DNA of 64,000 bases from Bdellovibrionales bacterium (lineage in GTDB: Bacteria; Bdellovibrionota; Bdellovibrionia; Bdellovibrionales; Bdellovibrionaceae): the NCBI GenBank assembly GCA_005793345.1, contig SXSU01000108.1, positions 1 to 64,000 of the forward strand, read 5' to 3'. The notes beneath the pieces were generated by a model. That model saw only the letters and a program-made list of their open reading frames with translations, searched no databases and was not told where the DNA came from. Position numbers and translations under genes: made by a program. This document shows positions 1,266 through 63,372 of this stretch, one piece after another. Each line of letters begins with the position of its first letter. Position 1 is the first letter of the stretch.

Positions 1266-2561
1266 CTATTCTATCATTGATAAAAAGTTGGGTTGAACTG
1301 GCTCTTTAGTGTGGGTTATATTTGAGTTCGAGTTTAATTTTGAGTTTGTTTTTGATTTTGTATCAGTAATACTTAATTTTTCTTTTTGTAAAAAGTCATC
1401 TTGCATTTTATTTTGATCATCGGTTATCTCAACTTTATCTAAATTTAAAAGTTGTGTTGTTGAGGATACTTTATCCGTCAAAATTGTTCCAATTGATTCT
1501 TGACTTCCTCTTCGCAAATCTGCACTTAATTTTCGAATAGAGTTTAAAGCATTATCACTTTCTTTTAAAGATTTATGAAAATAATTTTTAGCCCACTCCC
1601 AATCTACTCGCCTTAAAATTTCTTTTAACAAAGGTGAAGTCTTCTCAAGTCCATTCATTAAAGTAATAACTTGTTGTGCCCTTACCATGTAATCTTGCAT
1701 GCGTTGAATTTCTTGAGTTAATGTATCCGCAGGAATTTGTAAATCAGAAGCTACAACCATTGCAAATTCTGAGAGCCCCTTCATTTTTTCATTAAATAAT
1801 TTTTTATTTATATGACTTTGTAATTCTTTATGTGCAGCTTCCAACTCTTCATTTTTACGAACCAACTCTTCATTACGCTTTTCGAGCTCTCTTTGATTTT
1901 GTTCAAGTTGATCAATAATCGACTGCATAAGTTCGGGACTAATACGATGCCCTAATTGCTCAGTAGTTAATAACATATTGGTCGGCTCTTTAGACCAAGT
2001 TAAACTAAAATGAATATCTTCCCACTCACATTTTGCTTGCGATTGAGAGACATAACAAGGCAATACGGAAAATGCCGCTTTTAAAACTGAAGTGGTTAAT
2101 GGAAATTGTTCTGTAGAAATCGGTAAATCAAAGGCAACACGATTTTCTTCACGTCGCAAATTAGCTACTGGTGGAGCAGGAGAAATAAAATAACTTAAAA
2201 ATTTTTCTGGTTGATTCATGATTTCTTGTGGCCGAGGCATCATCTTAAGTACACTATCTAAAACTCCCCATGCTTTGAGTTCAGGAATTTGAGAACCTAC
2301 TTCTTCAAGTAAATCAGCTTTTTCTAGGGGGTGAAAAAAATCGACAAATAATTGTAACCAAGATTCAAGTTGTTCGGCATTAACCCAGTAAGCAGGATCT
2401 CTCATAAACTCTTCAGGAAAATCAATACGTTCGAGAACAGGGGAAAGATCCTCTCCTCTTCGGTCTAAATAACTCAGTATGGCATTGGTGATCTTACTAC
2501 TGAAATACACAAAGAGATTAGTATCCCATGTTTTTCGGAATATCCAGCCGGACTGTGCCAT
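1266..2561 (-). CDS. Hypothetical coiled-coil protein
   Basis: I do not recognise this 431-residue protein. It has no signal peptide or membrane segment, so it is probably cytoplasmic. Residues 1-215 look globular. Residues about 220-260 are a strong coiled coil, with many E/K/N residues in a repeating [18 protein letters not shown] style. Residues 260-370 are predicted mostly helical, and the last 60 are Ser/Thr/Lys/Asn-rich and probably disordered. The overall plan (sensor-like N-terminal domain, then a long helix) recalls a signalling protein that has lost its output domain, but no kinase, HTH or cyclase motif is visible. It lies directly upstream of eno on the same strand and diverges from recQ. 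Confidence 0.75.
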
Positions 2562-2590
2562 AAATGCAATTATTACTAGTTAATAAATGA

Positions 2591-2619
2591 TTAAGTTTTT
2601 GCATGATTAGTTATATAAT
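2591..2619 (+). promoter_or_regulatory. Candidate sigma-70 promoter for recQ
   Basis: A perfect TATAAT at 2614-2619 has a weak TTAAGT 17 bp upstream (2591-2596), about 50 bp before the recQ ATG. It is a sequence match only, in AT-rich DNA where such matches arise by chance. Confidence 0.35.
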
Positions 2620-2668
2620 CGGACTCTCTGTATTTTAAGCAAAATTCTAGCGCATTAGGAATTCTAAA

Positions 2669-4240
2669 ATGATAAATAACTTTGCCAATCTTGAAAGTAT
2701 TCTCACTAAAAATTTTAATTTGAATTCTTTTCGAAAGGGGCAAAAGGAGATCATTTCTACCATCTTATCCAATAAGGACGTTATGGGGGTTTTACCAACC
2801 GGAGGAGGTAAATCACTGTGTTATCAATTTATTGCTGTATATTATAATAAACTTGTTGTGGTAGTTTCTCCCTTAATCGCTCTTATGAAAGATCAAGTTT
2901 ATAATTTAAATAAAATTGGGATTCCTGCTGGGTGCATTTACTACAATCAACCCATTGAAGAAAAAAAAGAAGTTTTTGCTAAGATGGCACAAAAAGGTTC
3001 ATTTGTGCTTTATTTATCACCAGAGCGGATACAGAAGACTGGGTTTCATGAATGGATTAAAAATCAAGATGTTGCATTATTCGCAATAGATGATGCTCAT
3101 TGTATTTCTCAATGGGGACATGATTTTAGAGAAGAATACACTTCACTTTCTGTTTTGCGAAGTTTGCAACCCAATGTTCCCATCATTGCTCTAACAGCAT
3201 CTGCAACTCCACTAGTACTCAATGATATTGCAAAACAATTACAAATTCAAAATGCTGATCGAAAAGTATATGGATTTTACCGACCTAATTTATTTTATCA
3301 AGTGACCGAATGTGAAAATGAAGATGAAAAAATTGATTGGATTGCAAGTGCACTCAACAAATTTACAGAAGGACGAAAAATTATTTACTGTGGTACTCGT
3401 AAAAATACAGAATATGTTTGTGAAATTTTAAAACAAAACTTTCAAGGTGTTGCCCACTACCATGCAGGAATGAGCACCCAAGAACGCACGCAAATTCAAG
3501 ATGACTATCAAAATGGAAAGTTAAATATTTTAGTCGCAACCAATGCATTTGGAATGGGCGTTGATCAGCCAAATGTTCGTCTTGTTATTCACTACAATAT
3601 GCCCTCAAATATCGATTCACTTTATCAAGAAATGGGCCGTGCAGGCCGTGATGATAAAGATTCAACTTGTTTACTTTTATATTCCAAAAAAGATAAGGGC
3701 CTACAAGTATATTTTATTGAAAGTTCTGAATCAAATCCTGAAATTAAAAAATTAAGATGGAAAAATTTAAATGCATTGATCAGCTATAGTGAAGGTAGCG
3801 AATGTCGTCACTCCGAAATTTTAACTTATTTTAAAGACTCCCATCGAATAAAAAGGTGCGGACACTGCGATGTCTGTGAACCAAAATCAGAGCGCATGGT
3901 TCAGTTTTCAAAAAAACAAAAAAGTATTTTTTCACGAATTTTGAATAACAGTGAAGTAGAATCTTCGAAGAAAAACGCAGGAAATATAAAATCTATAAAA
4001 AATAATTCTACTTTAGATTTAGATGTCGAGAGTGAAAGTAGGTATCAAAAACTTCGCGTCTGGCGAAAAGAAATTGCTGAAGAAAAAGATCTTCCTGCAT
4101 TTGTTATTTTTCATGATAAAACTCTCAAAGAAATTGCAGCCATTAATCCTCAATCATTAGATGAGCTCAGAAAAATAAAAGGTATGGGCGATAAAAAAAT
4201 TGAAGACTACGGATGGGATATTTTGGCTGAGCTTAAATAA
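2669..4240 (+). CDS. recQ: RecQ-family ATP-dependent DNA helicase, short form
   Basis: 3'-5' superfamily 2 DNA helicase for recombination and replication repair. Walker A is GVLPTGGGKS (about 40-49). Motif II reads DDAH instead of the usual DEAH, followed by CISQWGHDFR. Motif III is TASATP, and motifs V/VI lie in GMGVDQPNVR and QEMGRAGRD. Four zinc-binding cysteines follow (SEC, then RCGHCDVC, about 376-402). A linker of about 45 residues then leads straight into a C-terminal HRDC domain (about 450-523). The winged-helix part of the RQC region, about 100 residues in E. coli RecQ (609 aa), appears absent. An AGGAA element precedes the ATG. It converges on the decayed gene at 4246 with a 5 bp gap. 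Confidence 0.9.
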   Translation: MINNFANLESILTKNFNLNSFRKGQKEIISTILSNKDVMGVLPTGGGKSLCYQFIAVYYNKLVVVVSPLIALMKDQVYNLNKIGIPAGCIYYNQPIEEKKEVFAKMAQKGSFVLYLSPERIQKTGFHEWIKNQDVALFAIDDAHCISQWGHDFREEYTSLSVLRSLQPNVPIIALTASATPLVLNDIAKQLQIQNADRKVYGFYRPNLFYQVTECENEDEKIDWIASALNKFTEGRKIIYCGTRKNTEYVCEILKQNFQGVAHYHAGMSTQERTQIQDDYQNGKLNILVATNAFGMGVDQPNVRLVIHYNMPSNIDSLYQEMGRAGRDDKDSTCLLLYSKKDKGLQVYFIESSESNPEIKKLRWKNLNALISYSEGSECRHSEILTYFKDSHRIKRCGHCDVCEPKSERMVQFSKKQKSIFSRILNNSEVESSKKNAGNIKSIKNNSTLDLDVESESRYQKLRVWRKEIAEEKDLPAFVIFHDKTLKEIAAINPQSLDELRKIKGMGDKKIEDYGWDILAELK

Positions 4241-21878: not shown

Positions 21879-21956
21879 TCTTATCTCCTCATTATAACAG
21901 ATATCGGAAATTTATTTTTAAATTCAAAATCTTTAATCCAACCAAAAAAAACGTCG

Positions 21957-22010
21957 CTTGATTATGTCTGATAAAATCGCGAAGCGATCAGACTTAATCA
22001 TTAGCAGTTA
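21957..22010 (-). repeat. Palindromic repeat module A, copy 1
   Basis: Outer arms GATTATGTCTG and CAGACTTAATC enclose an inner hairpin ATCGC-GAA-GCGAT, with tail ATTAGCAGTTA. Read on the minus strand it is the fourth element of an A-B-C-A array. Confidence 0.85.
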
Positions 22011-22051
22011 GTTATTAAGAAAATTCAAACTCCATTTTGGATTTTCTTAAT
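22011..22051 (-). repeat. Palindromic repeat module C, copy 1
   Basis: Stem AAGAAAAT/ATTTTCTT around a CAAACT-containing loop. It corresponds to the TGAAAA...TTTTCA hairpin at 41091-41120. Confidence 0.65.
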
Positions 22052-22090
22052 TCTGGGGTGATTGAAAATCACCCCCAACAAACAAGAAAA
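22052..22090 (-). repeat. Palindromic repeat module B, copy 1
   Basis: Hairpin GGGGTGATT-GAA-AATCACCCC at 22055-22075, flanked by AACAAACAAGAAAA, the reverse complement of the TTTTCTTGTTT flank of other copies. Confidence 0.8.
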
Positions 22091-22155
22091 TAACTGCTTA
22101 TGATTATGTCTGATATAATCAGCGCAAGCTGATCAGACTTAATCATTAGCAGTTA
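22091..22155 (-). repeat. Palindromic repeat module A, copy 2 (supplies a stop codon)
   Basis: Full-length copy: TAACTGCTTATGATTATGTC to ATTAGCAGTTA, with inner hairpin ATCAGC-GCAA-GCTGAT in place of ATCGC-GAA-GCGAT. The last three bases (22153-22155) are the TAA stop of the TPR gene read on the minus strand. Confidence 0.88.
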
Positions 22156-23706
22156 TTTTTTTTCGCAAGAATTCTTCCCAATATAAAAATAATTACCAAT
22201 TTCATCGAGCCAAAACTCTCCTCGAAAAGGATAATATTCGTATCCATTTTTTACATAAAACTCACGATCAACATCTTCGTTTATTGATTTTGGATCTTCT
22301 TTCTTTTGACCCAAAATTTGCATTTGAAGTTTTTCCTTTTGAAGATTTATTAATTCATATCTCAGAAATCCTACCTGTTCGTTAAGATCTTTTAATTCTG
22401 CACGCACAAAAACTAAATGAGCTTTTGTTTTAATTCCAATAAATGCTTTAGTATTTTTAATTCGATTTTCGATTAAGCGAATTGAATACTTACCTAAATT
22501 TGAAGATGTAAAAGAATAACTCATATTTTCAATTTCTTTTTTCTCTTCAAATAATTTTCGTAAATAATTTAAGTTATTTGAAACATTCCCTCTACCTATT
22601 ATATATCTTTGAATATTATATGGAATTTTTCCTTCATTACTTTTTTTATTATTTTTTAAATTTGTAAGGTTGAGCAGTCCTTTCTCGACTTCACCATAAA
22701 AAGCAAGTGGTTCATTTGTGTTTCGAAGAAAATTTCCAATGATTTCTTCTGAACGTCCATAGTTTTCTTCATATAGTTTTAATACTTTTTCTAATTCATC
22801 ATACTGGCAAATAAATAAATATACGATAGACCTTAATATTAAATATTCTGGGTTATAAATATCGCTATAATAATCTGAATGTATCGATTGAAAATTTCCA
22901 AGGGAAGATCTAATTCTTCCTGATCGCAAAAAAGCCCATGTTGATTCAAATAATGATTGATGCCAAAACTCGTGATCTCGTGGAATTTTTAAATAATAAG
23001 AAATACTTTTATCCCATTTTTGCATTTGATAATATGTTCTCGCTAATCCAAGAGTAGCTGCTAGTTTTAAATCATCAATTGGACCTTTCTTTTTTCTTAA
23101 ATTCAAGAGCTGTTGAAATTTATCTATTGCAATTTCTGTTTCATTTAAATGTGCATAAGACATTGCTTGATAATATAATGCTTCTTCGTAGTATCTATGG
23201 TTATCGCTAACTTTATCAAAAGCTTGGGTAGCTCCTTTATAATCTTGATTATCGAACTTAACTTCGCCCATACGATAATAAAGCATATCCCTGTGTTCTG
23301 CTGGAAATTCATTTAATTTTATTTTAGAAAATGCGTAGTTTAAAATTGTTTTATCTCCTAGTTCATCTGCAACAACCATTAACATTGAAACTGCCCGTTG
23401 AAAGTTTTTACTATCATTTGAGGTAATTACGTTTACAAATTGCCAAGCTGCAACTTGTGGTAAATTTAGTTCAATCAATATTTTTCCAAGATTGAGGTAG
23501 ATTTCACCTCTTTGATTTTTTAATTCTGGTCGCCTAACTAAATTAAAAAGAGCTGCAGCTGCTGCTGTGTAATTTTTCTTTTGAGCCATACCATATGCTT
23601 CTTGCAGAGCTTCTTGATAAGAAGCAAGCGCTCCAACAGGAGTCAAAAAAATAATAAATTGAATAGCAAAAACAATTTTTAATATGGATTTAATTTTTAT
23701 TCTCAT
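22153..23706 (-). CDS. Exported TPR-repeat protein of the Glt-like cluster
   Basis: 517-residue exported protein. A signal peptide (about 1-28, ending VGALA) is followed by TPR-like helices through about residue 260, for example AYGMAQKKNYTAAAAALFNL, YRMGEVKFDNQDYKGATQAF and YYQAMSYAHLNETEIAIDKF. The C-terminal half is helical and charged, perhaps coiled coil (about 400-460), and ends in GYEYYPFRGEFWLDEIGNY. Its start overlaps the upstream beta-barrel gene by 4 bp, so the two are coupled. Its stop codon lies in a repeat. A GltC-like role at the outer-membrane side is a guess from size, TPR content and position. Confidence 0.8.
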   Translation of the reverse strand: MRIKIKSILKIVFAIQFIIFLTPVGALASYQEALQEAYGMAQKKNYTAAAAALFNLVRRPELKNQRGEIYLNLGKILIELNLPQVAAWQFVNVITSNDSKNFQRAVSMLMVVADELGDKTILNYAFSKIKLNEFPAEHRDMLYYRMGEVKFDNQDYKGATQAFDKVSDNHRYYEEALYYQAMSYAHLNETEIAIDKFQQLLNLRKKKGPIDDLKLAATLGLARTYYQMQKWDKSISYYLKIPRDHEFWHQSLFESTWAFLRSGRIRSSLGNFQSIHSDYYSDIYNPEYLILRSIVYLFICQYDELEKVLKLYEENYGRSEEIIGNFLRNTNEPLAFYGEVEKGLLNLTNLKNNKKSNEGKIPYNIQRYIIGRGNVSNNLNYLRKLFEEKKEIENMSYSFTSSNLGKYSIRLIENRIKNTKAFIGIKTKAHLVFVRAELKDLNEQVGFLRYELINLQKEKLQMQILGQKKEDPKSINEDVDREFYVKNGYEYYPFRGEFWLDEIGNYFYIGKNSCEKK

Positions 23707-28799: not shown

Positions 28800-28843
28800 A
28801 ACTACTAATATTATTGCCTGTTACAATCGCGAAGCAATCAGAT
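28800..28843 (-). repeat. Palindromic repeat module A, degenerate copy at the flgN stop
   Basis: Read on the minus strand it is ATCTGATTGCTTCGCGATTG, then AACAGGCAATAATATTAGTAGTT. The inner hairpin is kept (ATTGC-TTC-GCGAT, one G-T wobble) and the outer arms have drifted. The flgN stop codon (TGA, 28838-28840) lies inside the element. Confidence 0.65.
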
Positions 28844-29353
28844 TTCTTTTTTAACAAAATGACCTGCGCGCTCAGGTCCTCTTTCTACATTTCCAGTTCG
28901 ATGATAAGTTTTTTGACCGGCTAAATTATCTTTAACATTGTCCATAGCTGTTTTTAAGTATCGAAGTGCTGATTTTGCGTATTCTTCATTTTCTTTATTT
29001 AATTCTGGAATTCTTTTAAATAAGATTTCTAAAGCCGAATGCATACCGCGCAATTTATTACCACGATCACCTTCAAATTGCCGAGCTAACTCTAATAATC
29101 TAGGTTGGTTATCATCAAGATTAAGTTCTTTTGCTAACTCTGTAGCATACTTCATTCTTAATGAATCCAAAGATTTTATTTTCATCAAAAAAAAATCTTT
29201 CATTTTAGTAGATTCATTAATTTTCTCAGCATCTCCCGAAAGTAGAACTTCTTTTTCTTTTCTAAGTTGCTCTACTAATTGGCGATATAATTTAGTGAGT
29301 TCTTCTAAATTAAATTCAAGTTTAGTATATAAACGATCCTTGTTTGCGTCCAT
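28838..29353 (-). CDS. flgN: Flagellar chaperone FlgN
   Basis: FlgN is the cytosolic export chaperone for FlgK and FlgL, which are encoded just downstream. The 171-residue, almost fully helical protein has the FlgN-like start LYTKLEFNLEELTKLYRQLVE, VLLSGDAEKINESTKMKDFF, a leucine-rich middle, and a basic C-terminal tail. The ATG at 29351-29353 is preferred because GGAG lies 5 bases upstream; a TTG 15 bp further up overlaps the flgM stop. The identification combines position and helical pattern. Confidence 0.85.
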   Translation of the reverse strand: MDANKDRLYTKLEFNLEELTKLYRQLVEQLRKEKEVLLSGDAEKINESTKMKDFFLMKIKSLDSLRMKYATELAKELNLDDNQPRLLELARQFEGDRGNKLRGMHSALEILFKRIPELNKENEEYAKSALRYLKTAMDNVKDNLAGQKTYHRTGNVERGPERAGHFVKKEI

Positions 29354-32795: not shown

Positions 32796-32838
32796 TTGAT
32801 AATATCGAGAAGCGATCAGACTTACTCATGGGGAGTTA
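32796..32838. repeat. Palindromic repeat module A between convergent genes
   Basis: Partial copy TTTGATAATATCGAGAAGCG then ATCAGACTTACTCATG, with tail GGGGAGTTA. It fills the gap between the HEPN gene (stop 32793) and the convergent exported gene, whose TAA stop (32836-32838) is the terminal TTA of the element. Confidence 0.75.
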
Positions 32839-33729
32839 ATTTGAAATAAGAGCAATTGCATTTACTATGGAGTTGGAATCTCTAATTTTAACGAACCCGA
32901 TGTTTCCTTGATATGAATCTAAAGTAATCAAAATATCCTCATTAATAGAGGGATGTTTAAATGTACCAACAATGACAACGGAATGACCACCATTAGCAGA
33001 ATAGCGTGATGATGGATAGACTATATTTTCTAATAATTCATTTTTATTATTTATAAAATATATTAATTGAGTCGATACTTGTGCAAAATAATCTAATAAT
33101 ATTGGTACGCCTTTACGGGCAAATTTGACTACCAAATCATAATTATATAGTAACTTATAATTTACATTCAATTCTTTTAATAATTGAAATCTGTAATTTT
33201 GTTGATCTGAGGGTTTGTTACACAAACCAGAGTAGGGACAAAATTTTTCAATTACATCTTCAGTAAGTTGTTCATTCTCTATAAACTGGTTTAACAAAAT
33301 ATTAGGTTTTTGATTGTAAATTTTAAGACCATTTATAATTGCATTTCCTAAACAAGACTGCCCCACTTGAATTTTCGGTATAAATGTTTTCATTAAGTTA
33401 ATTGAGTTAAAATCATTAATTAAATCACTTTCAATTTTTATAATTTTAAACTTATTAATCGGACTGACATATACAAATTCAGGTGTAGCAATTAGAAAAA
33501 TATATTTGTTTGTTTGACCATTAATAATAGCATTAACTTTATCACCTGGTTTTATTTTTTTCGAAAAACTGAATCCTGCTTTTTTTAAATTGATAGAAGC
33601 TTTTTGGAATAATGCAGTCTCGAATAATTGATTGCATGTTTGGATATGATCATTCACACCATATGAATCCGAATGAAAAAATAAAACAAAACAACATAGT
33701 AAATATATCAATTTTATTTGATTTTTCAT
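32836..33729 (-). CDS. Exported protein, possible papain-like cysteine peptidase
   Basis: 297-residue exported protein. The signal peptide covers about 1-24 (LIYLLCCFVLFFHSDSYG). Three spaced motifs look like a papain-fold catalytic triad: GQSCLGNAIINGLK (Cys at about 122), NGGHSVVIVGTF (His at about 245) and ILITLDSYQGNIG (Asp at about 267). Such order and spacing occur in C39-like and related peptidases or transferases. No propeptide, toxin or binding domain is recognised. Secretion suits a hydrolase acting on other cells or the cell's own envelope, but this is inference. Confidence 0.65.
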   Translation of the reverse strand: MKNQIKLIYLLCCFVLFFHSDSYGVNDHIQTCNQLFETALFQKASINLKKAGFSFSKKIKPGDKVNAIINGQTNKYIFLIATPEFVYVSPINKFKIIKIESDLINDFNSINLMKTFIPKIQVGQSCLGNAIINGLKIYNQKPNILLNQFIENEQLTEDVIEKFCPYSGLCNKPSDQQNYRFQLLKELNVNYKLLYNYDLVVKFARKGVPILLDYFAQVSTQLIYFINNKNELLENIVYPSSRYSANGGHSVVIVGTFKHPSINEDILITLDSYQGNIGFVKIRDSNSIVNAIALISN

Positions 33730-39556: not shown

Positions 39557-39703
39557 AAACTCTTCTCCTTATAAAATTTTACTCGATAGGCAAAAGTAAA
39601 TTTGTTTGACAGTAGATTAGCGAAGAGTTTTTAAGATGTCACATTTAGATAATATTTTTAAATTTTGATGCGCTACATTTGGTATGGCACATCCCAACTA
39701 TAA

Positions 39704-39760
39704 ATGCTCATGATTAAGTCTGATCGACTGCGCGATTTTATCAGACATTACTTTTAATTA
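39704..39760 (-). repeat. Palindromic repeat module A
   Basis: CTCATGATTAAGTCTGATCG, loop ACTGCG, then CGATTTTATCAGACATTA, with tail CTTTTAATTA. The final TTA (39758-39760) is the TAA stop of the gene at 39758-40909. The inner pairing is reduced to ATCG/CGAT. Confidence 0.8.
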
Positions 39761-40948: not shown

Positions 40949-40990
40949 AGAAAAATAGACACAAACTAAAGTTTCGATTTTCATAATAAC
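40949..40990 (+). repeat. Palindromic repeat module C (left copy)
   Basis: AGAAAAATAGACACAAACTA, then AAGTTTCGATTTTCATAATAAC. It matches the right copy at 41090-41129 over about 30 bases (ACACAAACTAAAGTTT, then ATTTTCATAATAAC), so the two C modules form direct repeats around A-B. Confidence 0.8.
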
Positions 40991-41049
40991 TACTCATGAT
41001 TAAGTCTGATCGCTTCGCGATTATATCAGACATAATCATAAGCAGTTAT
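40991..41049 (+). repeat. Palindromic repeat module A (best preserved)
   Basis: Arms ATGATTAAGTCTGAT and ATCAGACATAATCAT (one mismatch) enclose ATCGC-TTC-GCGAT; tail AAGCAGTTA. Used here as the reference copy. Confidence 0.9.
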
Positions 41050-41089
41050 TTTCCTGTTTGATTGGGGTGATTTTTAATCACCCCAAATT
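41050..41089 (+). repeat. Palindromic repeat module B
   Basis: TTTTCCTGTTTGATT leads into hairpin GGGGTGATT-TTT-AATCACCCC (41064-41084), then AAATTATG. Same core as 22055-22075 and the terminator at 10371-10407. Confidence 0.85.
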
Positions 41090-41129
41090 ATGAAAACACA
41101 AACTAAAGTTTGTATTTTCATAATAACCT
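41090..41129 (+). repeat. Palindromic repeat module C (right copy)
   Basis: Nested hairpin: outer TGAAAA/TTTTCA (41091-41120), inner ACAAACT-AA-AGTTTGT (41098-41113). Followed by TAATAACC, the same junction that leads into module A on the left side of this array. Confidence 0.85.
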
Positions 41130-43295: not shown

Positions 43296-44564
43296 GTGGA
43301 ACTTTCAGAACTTATCCAAGAAATTTCGAAGGAAAATTTAGAGTTAATAAAAAATGAATCTATAAAACTTAGATCCATTAACTTTCAATTTTATCCAAAT
43401 AAAATTATGACAATAATTGGAGTTCGAAGAGGTGGAAAAAGCTCAATTCAAAAAAAAGTTATCCAGCGATTACTTAGTGAAAACCGGAATTTTGAATCCA
43501 TATTTTTTGTAAATTTTGAGGATGATCGACTTTCAAATATGTCTGCCCATGAGTTTGGAGCAGCTCTTGATAATTATTTATTAACCTTCAACCACGAAAA
43601 ATCTAAATTTTTTTTCTTTGATGAAATTCAAAATCTTGAAAATTGGGAAAAATTAGTTCGTAGGCTTACAGAACAAAAACATAAAGTTTGTATAACCGGC
43701 TCCTCCGCAAAAACACTAAGTAAAGAAATTGCAACTTCACTCAGAGGGAGATCTTTAACATATACAATATACCCCTTATCTTTTTTTGAGTGGCTTGATT
43801 TTAAGGGACTCCATAATCTTTTAGAGAGAATACTAAAATCAGATTTTCTCCTCAGTGATATTTATCAACCTCTAATGGAATTTTTGAATACTGGAGGTTT
43901 TCCTGAACTCAGTCTCCTCCCCAAAAAAATCCACAGAGAAATTCTAAAAGATTATGTAGATGTAATGCTTTTTAGAGATGTTATTGAGCGCAATAACTTT
44001 ACTGATGAAAAACTTGTTCGGGAAATTTTTAAATTTTCTATTCAGCAAGTAGCTCAATCTTTTTCAGTAAATAAACTAAATAATGATTTAAAATCTAGAG
44101 GATATTCATTTTCAAAAAATTTTACTTATCAAGTTATTGAAGCATTTCAAGATGCATTTGCTATATTTTCCATTCCAATATTTTCATCGTCTATTCGGAA
44201 ACAACAATCAAATCCCAAAAAATGTTATAATATTGATAATGGATTAAAGACCCTTTACTCTTTATCAAATCAATCAGATTTTGGTCGACGTTTTGAAAAT
44301 TTAATATTTTTAGATTTACTCAGAACTAAACATGAGGTTTTTTATTATTTAACCGAAAAAAGCAGATTAGAAATCGATTTTATTTGTGTAAAAAATAATA
44401 TAACTACAGCCTATCAGGTCAGCTTTAATTCAAAAACAAAAAATGAACCCTTAGAAAAAAAAGCCCAATCCGAAGTTTTTAACGAATTAGGGTTGAATGT
44501 CGAATATATCAGCCCTGAAAATTACATTCAATTTTTAAAAAAAATAATAACAGCTCATGATTAA
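43296..44564 (+). CDS. AAA ATPase with DUF4143 domain
   Basis: 422-residue cytosolic protein of the AAA_14/DUF4143 group, a family common in prokaryotes with largely unknown roles. Walker A is GVRRGGKSS (about 42-50). Walker B is KFFFFDEIQNLENW (about 107-120). Sensor 1 lies in VCITGSSAKTL, followed by SLRGRSLTYTIYPLSFFEWL. DUF4143 (about 220-400) has RDVIERNNF and the nuclease-like C-terminal part ENLIFLDLLR, SRLEIDFICVKN, AYQVSF, where E, D and Q-V residues fit a PD-(D/E)xK fold. The start is GTG after AGGAG. Its last residues (AHD) and stop are encoded by a module A repeat. Confidence 0.88.
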   Translation: MELSELIQEISKENLELIKNESIKLRSINFQFYPNKIMTIIGVRRGGKSSIQKKVIQRLLSENRNFESIFFVNFEDDRLSNMSAHEFGAALDNYLLTFNHEKSKFFFFDEIQNLENWEKLVRRLTEQKHKVCITGSSAKTLSKEIATSLRGRSLTYTIYPLSFFEWLDFKGLHNLLERILKSDFLLSDIYQPLMEFLNTGGFPELSLLPKKIHREILKDYVDVMLFRDVIERNNFTDEKLVREIFKFSIQQVAQSFSVNKLNNDLKSRGYSFSKNFTYQVIEAFQDAFAIFSIPIFSSSIRKQQSNPKKCYNIDNGLKTLYSLSNQSDFGRRFENLIFLDLLRTKHEVFYYLTEKSRLEIDFICVKNNITTAYQVSFNSKTKNEPLEKKAQSEVFNELGLNVEYISPENYIQFLKKIITAHD

Positions 44565-44602
44565 GTCTGATCAGCTAAGCTGGAGAAATCATACATAATC
44601 AT
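44547..44602 (+). repeat. Palindromic repeat module A (inner hairpin variant)
   Basis: CTCATGATTAAGTCTGATCAGC, inner hairpin CAGC-TAA-GCTG, then GAGAAATCATACATAATCAT. It overlaps the end of the AAA ATPase gene, whose codons GCT CAT GAT TAA are repeat sequence. Confidence 0.85.
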
Positions 44603-44608
44603 AAAAAT

Positions 44609-58122: not shown

Positions 58123-58890
58123 ATGGACTATAAAAATATTAATTATAAAAAAAAATCTCTCCCCCTATTAAATCCACTTTGCGTTGCCTTAGACGTTGAC
58201 GATAAGAAATCATGCTTAAAGTTAGTCGATGAAATTGGAGATGTTGCCGGTGGATATAAAGTTGGTCCACGATTAATCTTAAGAGAAGGCTCCAGTTTAA
58301 TAACTACTATCGCCAAAACTGCTCCAGTATTTTTAGATTTCAAATTTTTTGATATTCCTTCTACAATGGTTTCTGCAGTTAAAGCAGGATTTGATGCTGG
58401 TGCAAGTTTAGTAACAGTGCACGCCCAAGCTGGTATTGAAGCTTTAAGTCAACTTGCAATTCTAGAACAAGAGTACCAAAAAACTAAGCCTGTAAAAATT
58501 TTGGCAGTTACTATTTTAACTAGTTTTGATGAAAAAACTTTACCCTCTATATTAAAAACTCAATCAATTCAAACTCATGTTCACGAATTAGTAAACTTAG
58601 TTCAGCAATCAGGTTTAACTGGAGTTGTTTGCTCTCCTCACGAATTAAGTAGTTTGCACGAAATTGAACAATTTAATTCGATGTATTTTGTTACTCCAGG
58701 TATTAGAGGGGCCACATCTAATCAATTAAACTCAATGAACGCAAATCAACTTCAAGATCAAAAAAGAGTTATGAGTGCCAAAGAAGCTATTGAGTTAGGT
58801 GCTAGCGGATTAGTTGTTGGTCGACCTATCATTGAATCCAAAAATCCTAGGGAAGAAGCTCTCAAGTATTCTATCTCAATTTTTGAATAA
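58123..58890 (+). CDS. pyrF: Orotidine 5'-phosphate decarboxylase
   Basis: Last step of UMP synthesis, cytosolic TIM barrel. The 255 residues have PLCVALDVDDKKSCLKLVDE at strand 1 and the catalytic Asp/Lys/Asp array in VFLDFKFFDIPSTM (usually DLKFHDIPNT). Phosphate-binding motifs are VTPGIRG and GASGLVVGRPI. A short N-terminal extension precedes the barrel. TGAGGAAC lies just before the ATG. The stop codon abuts a module A repeat. Confidence 0.93.
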   Translation: MDYKNINYKKKSLPLLNPLCVALDVDDKKSCLKLVDEIGDVAGGYKVGPRLILREGSSLITTIAKTAPVFLDFKFFDIPSTMVSAVKAGFDAGASLVTVHAQAGIEALSQLAILEQEYQKTKPVKILAVTILTSFDEKTLPSILKTQSIQTHVHELVNLVQQSGLTGVVCSPHELSSLHEIEQFNSMYFVTPGIRGATSNQLNSMNANQLQDQKRVMSAKEAIELGASGLVVGRPIIESKNPREEALKYSISIFE

Positions 58891-58960
58891 CTACTTTTGA
58901 TTAATATCTGATTGCTTCGCGAATATATCAGACATAACCATAAGCAGTTTTTTTGCCTGT
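58888..58960 (+). repeat. Palindromic repeat module A plus partial B after pyrF
   Basis: AACTACTTTTGATTAATATCTG, inner ATTGC-TTC-GCGAAT, then ATATCAGACATAACCATAAG, CAGTTT and the module B lead TTTTTTGCCTGTTG, after which it breaks off. It starts inside the pyrF stop codon and ends before the yraN stop at 58971. Confidence 0.8.
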
Positions 58961-63256: not shown

Positions 63257-63372
63257 ATAACCGCTCATAATTAAGTCTGATCGCTTCGCGATTATCTCAG
63301 ACATAATCATAAGCAATATTTTCTTGATTGTTAGGGATGATTTCTGAACCACCCCGAATTATGAAAACCCAA
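63257..63372 (+). repeat. Palindromic repeat array A-B-(C) downstream of rpsP
   Basis: Module A (63257-63318: CTCATAATTAAGTCTGATCG, TTCGCGATTATCTCAGAC, ATAATCATAAGC), then module B with a decayed stem (GGGATGATT versus AACCACCCC), then the first bases of module C (GAATTATGAAAAC). The order matches 40991-41129. It lies between rpsP and khpA inside the translation operon. Confidence 0.8.

Follow-up and report, generated by a model that had tools for sequence, protein, structure and literature searches.

Hairpin Family and Main Reading

We conclude with moderate confidence that the copies described here represent a non-autonomous, composite palindromic interspersed repeat that inserts 3′ of a host AATAA, most often that of a stop codon, and that is copied from its module A along a head-to-tail template, with copying stopping after one of the hairpins. 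The family has a unit of three hairpins (A, B, and C), a high copy number, a fixed module order, one sharp left end, variable right ends, an anchoring at stop codons, no target duplication, and a distribution restricted, among the genomes searched, to one species. It has the look of a miniature mobile element whose general type is known, the target and the manner of starting and stopping being unusual. The window, that is, the whole stretch of 64,000 nucleotides analyzed in this study, is contig C91 of a 3.96-Mb draft genome (138 contigs, 83% complete) and has a GC content of 32%. The prolyl-tRNA synthetase has its closest match (67%) in a metagenome-derived Bdellovibrionales genome, which makes a Bdellovibrionales bacterium the most likely source.

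Two Arrays and Further Copies in the Window

Profiles built from full module copies recognized nine A copies in the window, some of them decayed, in two arrays and at six further A sites (Table 1). The sequence-only reading had described the loci at 40949 and 21957 as C-A-B-C and A-B-C-A when read in one orientation, and the module profiles place both of them in this way, on the plus and the minus strand, respectively. At 40949, the order stands but the array is not complete: its first C is truncated, so that one A-B-C lies behind a C remnant. The A-B-C unit, expected to be roughly 140 bp, measures 137 bp and runs from [C]TGCT to CATAATAA. The two loci had also been credited with a common C-A junction. 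Genome-wide, 37 of 42 C-A junctions are indeed clean (AATAA/C, the slash marking the junction), and five are offset (e.g., by CTAA, CTTAA, CTACA, or CTGAA), among them the 21957 locus itself. The junction at 40949 reads CATAATAAC-TACTCATG (CATAATAACTACTC), and that at 21957 reads TTAATAA-CTAA-CTGCTAATG, with four extra bases.

Table 1. Modules of the repeat family located in the window.
Feature	Position	Strand	Basis or remark
Truncated C (right part), left end of C-A-B-C locus	40959-40989	+	Profile search
A, long imperfect hairpin starting at AATAAC	40986-41049	+	Profile search, fold; shares ATAA with end of C
B, linker and G+C-rich hairpin GGGGTGATT/AATCACCCC	41050-41084	+	Profile search, fold
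C, hairpin ATTATGAAAA...TTTTCATAATAA	41087-41126	+	Profile search, fold
A1, first module of A-B-C-A locus	22090-22156	-	Profile search
B of A-B-C-A locus	22055-22089	-	Profile search
C of A-B-C-A locus, diverged	22012-22051	-	Profile search
A2, degenerate second A of A-B-C-A locus	21951-22010	-	Profile search; junction to C with 4 extra bases (CTAA)
Solo A hairpin, degenerate	28802-28845	-	Profile search
Solo A, truncated	32796-32838	-	TAA is stop codon of ORF 32836-33729(-)
Solo A, right end lost	39700-39748	+	Profile search
Solo A, directly behind or overlapping end of ORF 43296-44564(+)	44547-44603	+	
Solo A	58887-58949	+	TAA is native stop of orotidine-phosphate decarboxylase gene 58123-58890(+)
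Solo A, then decayed B and start of C	63257-63315	+	Profile search

Copy Number, Module Order, and Structure

A 201-bp query gave 122 BLAST matches in the genome, and a strict pattern of the A hairpin gave 178 matches compared with 0 for a reversed-pattern control, which excludes chance as their source. Extrapolation from the nine A copies in the window yields an estimate of about 500 A hairpins genome-wide. The element catalogue represents a large sample of the loci in the genome and contains 130 distinct clusters and 25 held-out clusters, 155 in all. Arbitrary module orders and non-conserved junctions, named earlier as the observations that would contradict a shared unit, were not encountered: every cluster follows the cyclic order A, B, (C), A, none reads, for example, B-A-C, and the C-A junction is conserved in the proportion given above. 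Modules stand in direct orientation, and reversed modules are rare. The cluster forms counted are A (25), A-B (11), A-B-C (24), A-B-C-A (11), A-B-C-A-B (7), and A-B-C-A-B-C (6), together with A-B-A-B types without C and a few clusters beginning in C or B. Among multi-module forms, the single A-B-C and not an array is the most frequent, and both A-B and A-B-A-B without C also exist.

One unit folds as DNA into three hairpins with -36.6 kcal/mol (z -11.5), and the opposite strand with -41.1 (z -12.0). Across 64 units, standard pairs occupy 92% of the paired cells versus 34-44% when the arms are slid, and compensatory changes, in which a pair is altered on both sides, number 11 versus 4.1 in shuffles. 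The A stem carries a conserved A.A mismatch and a bulge. No known RNA of Rfam was found in the window at the gathering threshold, nor at E<=1 over two element loci (L001 and L025).

One Sharp Left End and Three Right Ends

Aligned to the tandem consensus, most copies start at AATAA/CTGCT or a few bases from there. The left end is sharp, with A at position -1 in 79 of 85 cases and a nearly invariant (A)ATAAC, and conservation stops 1-2 bases upstream of this motif; among the held-out loci, 24 of 25 start with A. Right ends cluster at unit positions 0-5 (after C), 61-75 (after A), and 100-107 (after B), and few fall inside hairpins. Taken together, these ends indicate that phase variation arises at the right end, apart from a minority of copies truncated on the left, the 40949 locus being one of them. 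The earlier view that the arrays were simply cut at different phases is not supported: the left end is nearly always A at AATAA/CTGCT, and the right end alone varies among the three linkers.

Copies that end in C often extend 1-5 bases into the next A; in 17 of 33 such copies, the following base is the C with which A begins (P = 1.6e-6). This run-on favors a template with head-to-tail units, and a multimeric or circular template would fit it.

AATAA and Stop Codons

Among the 104 elements whose left end is clean, there are 26 in which the gene upstream stops exactly at the TAA of AATAA (offset +4), compared with eight stops at other reading positions (+11, +14, and +18). Mere gene truncation would be expected to give the three reading frames equal shares; the other frames hold just these eight. 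Of the 44 stops close to the boundary, 42 are TAA, versus 29 of 53 for genes of the window. Within the window, the TAA of A1 (22153-22155) is the stop codon of ORF 22153-23706(-). The orotidine-phosphate decarboxylase (PyrF) that stops at a solo A matches its Pfam profile through 221/221 and ends within about 2 residues of the ends of its closest homologues, and matches of an ABC permease, a LysR regulator, and an EASG-like protein stopping at elements likewise reach the profile ends. The exact stops and the full length of those proteins that were checked make it probable that AATAA is host sequence and the target. Two of 13 upstream stops at held-out loci lie at +4 and four more at +1 (6/13 at +1 or +4); this is the same direction, but the low number at +4 speaks against the main reading. 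No target site duplication was seen, the two flanks being no more alike than expected whatever the offset (best z 1.7 among many tests).

How the Arrays May Lengthen

A units within an array are more alike than across arrays (mean of 7.0 versus 10.5 differences, 0/500 permutations). Four arrays (L064, L066, L095, and L131) consist of identical units (0 differences) with private variants, which points to local tandem duplication. Three two-unit arrays (L004, L012, and L099) show clean junctions between strongly differing units, and second A copies (A2) are often more decayed than A1. The likeness within some arrays and the differing units or decayed A2 in others make both the one-step insertion of a multimer and stepwise addition possible. 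The earlier proposal of a tandem or circular mobile form is partly supported: a head-to-tail template fits, and the circular or tandem intermediate is hypothetical, some arrays being local duplications and others resembling successive insertions of differing units.

It is possible, albeit doubtful in our judgment, that no multimeric or circular intermediate exists. Single A, A-B, or A-B-C units would then insert singly at AATAA, including the 5′ AATAA of an older A and the 3′ AATAA of an older C, and arrays would grow only by slippage or unequal crossing-over. The prevalence of the single A-B-C among multi-module forms is consistent with such a course, as are the five offset junctions (the 21957 locus included), which resemble two independent insertions, and the second A, often degenerate with a mismatched right arm; followed by duplication, it would also accommodate the four arrays of identical units. 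However, the 1-5 bases by which C-ended copies run into the next A are far above chance, and the three arrays of differing units would need a second insertion exactly at the common AATAA.

Several further observations concern array composition. A recurrent A variant, in which the right arm ATGCGAGACAAAATCATGCGCCGTTATT is mismatched to the left arm, occurs in L011, L024, L104, and L123, usually either standing alone or being the final A of an array, and looks like a chimera of two hairpin subtypes. At L082, L092, L070, and L136, arrays of the A-B type, most of which lack C, carry B variants private to them (e.g., TTAGGGCTATATTCGATAGCCCCC in L082) and repeat almost unchanged within one locus. 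Of the 148 ends of contigs C1-C74, at least 12 lie within ~160 bp of an A match; the assembly breaks at arrays, whose real length may therefore be greater. Directly behind the A-B-C-A-B-C array of L004 (~1670-1900) are two copies of a further inverted-repeat motif, AAAACATCGGATTTATAATTTGATTACAAACCCGATGTTT, and two palindromic copies, GTGCGTATAATATGTTT...AAACACATAATACGCAC, lie near the A-B-C-A array of L015 (~1700-1850), possibly as another small repeat family or an operator.

Candidate Enzymes and a Group II Intron

The transposase and reverse transcriptase inventory of the genome comprises five Y1 matches, one IS91-type Y2 gene, and one group II intron reverse transcriptase. A RAYT-like Y1 protein is encoded in several similar copies at contig ends (L110, 1431-2021(-); L150, end of C78; L278, start of C55; L279, end of C76), one of which adjoins an IS30-type gene, and the Y2 transposase gene lies directly behind a tyrosine recombinase gene (L265, G000:C86:5500-12500, at 1506-3591). 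A Y1 fragment considered as a neighbor of an A-B-C copy is ~900 bp away from it.

Single-strand transposition by an HUH enzyme (of the IS200/IS605 type, the RAYT type, or the rolling-circle type of IS91), in which A would be the left hairpin and AATAA the candidate cleavage site, would agree with the lack of target duplication, the hairpin ends, the fixed left end with read-through, and the presence of Y1 and Y2 transposase genes. We nevertheless regard it as unlikely, given that none of the module ends A, B, or C was found at the Y1 and Y2 loci, for which reason neither the Y1/RAYT genes nor the IS91-type gene were retained as mobilizers, and that relatives of the RAYT-like gene, often multicopy, are present in 82 of the 141 genomes of the order, whereas the repeat occurs in this one only.

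The group II intron (reverse transcriptase/maturase; domain V, Rfam) occupies ~141-2154 of L281 (G000:C36), with flanks at 1-140 and 2155-2252, and interrupts an A/B array at a point with an A′ hairpin on one side and a B′ hairpin on the other. The uninterrupted exon junction, GAGCTGTAAAG/TGATGATCG, is present in the repeat beside it. Group IIC introns home to DNA stem-loops (PMC10190682), and the repeat appears to be a stem-loop homing site for this intron. Its position would fit group IIC homing if the intron belongs to that class, and does not show that the intron moves the repeat.

Retroposition of a SINE-like kind seems improbable to us. It would involve an opposite-strand RNA (C′-B′-A′) ending in GCAGUUAUU, which pairs by its 3′ UUAUU with a nicked AATAA-3′OH and is reverse transcribed into cDNA that ends at RNA hairpins. 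This course is compatible with a single fixed end and with right ends that fall at hairpin boundaries, and the only reverse transcriptase of the genome is that of the intron inside the A/B array; this placement is, however, explained by stem-loop homing of group IIC introns without mobilization of the repeat (PMC10190682). Mismatches are mostly A.C on the top strand, equivalent to G.U on the opposite one (79 versus 6 cells in A and 26 versus 4 in C), but about five shared polymorphisms account for this strand asymmetry, which is weak by column (12 versus 7) and suggestive only. Its fuller form has an equally low probability: a bacterial SINE-like retroposon whose C′-B′-A′ RNA would undergo target-primed reverse transcription at AATAA stop codons, possibly with the resident group II intron supplying the reverse transcriptase, 5′ truncation occurring at RNA hairpins and multimers arising where the template is tandem.

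Genomic Placement and Distribution

No element lies inside an ORF, and among the 89 elements with both neighbors known, 29 stand between convergent genes and 13 between divergent genes. The relatives searched include no genome of the same genus, and no empty site of an element was found. The A-B-C repeat is absent from 39 relatives searched and from 140 other genomes of the order Bdellovibrionales, a covariance model of A found no match in 65 other genomes of the family, the C-A junction pattern had no match in GTDB 220 contigs, and no relatives of the repeat were found in viral contigs. Within the genomes searched, the A-B-C family is confined to one species. Hairpins at 3′ gene ends that serve the host (as terminators, mRNA protectors, or sites for nucleoid proteins) and that gene conversion has multiplied without their being mobile would suit the avoidance of ORFs and the convergent placements but are a remote prospect in view of the elements between divergent genes and the confinement to one species.

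Proposed Course of Copying

We return to the interspersed repeat that inserts 3′ of AATAA. That the copies insert at all is inferred, as are the polarity of insertion, the form of the template, and the enzyme. Copying would start at the A end on a template of head-to-tail units, which may be an array transcript, a multimer, or a circle, and would halt after one of the hairpins, giving the series A, A-B, A-B-C, A-B-C-A, A-B-C-A-B, and A-B-C-A-B-C. The right end of an A-B-C copy would recreate AATAA, allowing more units to join head to tail; some arrays may afterwards be homogenized by local tandem duplication.

The means by which small palindromic repeats spread through bacterial genomes are for the most part unsettled, and the clues here are unusually clean: one sharp end at AATAA (frequently a native stop), three alternative ends at hairpin boundaries, and a fixed head-to-tail order make the start, the stop, and the template testable. 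A stop-codon target would explain the tolerance of hundreds of copies in a compact genome.

Comparison With Known Repeat Systems

Similar to REP, BIME, and REPIN sequences (PMC2817692; PMC3733652; PMC3116915), the repeat consists of extragenic palindromes with bulged stems, more than 100 copies, compensatory changes, and both clusters and tandem clusters. Different from them, it has no GTAG/CGTC tag, its units are direct and not alternating as in BIMEs, each unit holds three unrelated hairpins, and no RAYT is linked to it. The GTAG/CGTC tags are absent from the consensus of A, B, and C, CTAC occurring solely in a minority TAACTACT variant. No REPtron (a RAYT gene flanked by palindromes) was found at the Y1 loci of this genome, which is 83% complete and may lack such a locus.

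The composite modular A-B-C architecture is shared with BOX of Streptococcus pneumoniae (boxA-boxB-boxC; PMC3049150), also an intergenic repeat of typically <200 bp with hairpins, missing or repeated modules, a high copy number, and a nearly species-restricted occurrence. In BOX, the middle module is repeated between fixed outer ones, and there are terminal inverted repeats and target duplications (PMC3049150), whereas here the whole unit is repeated head to tail, with neither terminal repeats of the element as a whole nor target duplication. SPRITE of pneumococcus is likewise a hairpin repeat enriched near 3′ gene ends but consists of a single 18-bp duplex and a U-rich tail (PMC3049150), whereas the repeat described here starts exactly at AATAA.

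The unit ends AATAACTGCT and CATAATAA are not inverted copies of each other; the insertion-sequence loci compared were those of Y1 and Y2 only. Integron attC sites were rejected because their boxes R″ (RYYYAAC) and R′ (GTTRRRY) do not fit the A ends AATAAC and GTTATT. PATE and MITE derivatives of IS200/IS605 have palindromic ends, no target duplication, and a fixed short target at the left. The repeat resembles them in all three traits, the fixed left side being AATAA, and differs in its variable right end; a parent insertion sequence with such ends was not found at the Y1 and Y2 loci inspected. Considering its likeness to REP/BIME/REPIN and BOX together with its departures from them in tag, orientation, and target duplication, we class the repeat as a new variant of the REP/BIME/BOX kind that is a member of no single one of these families.
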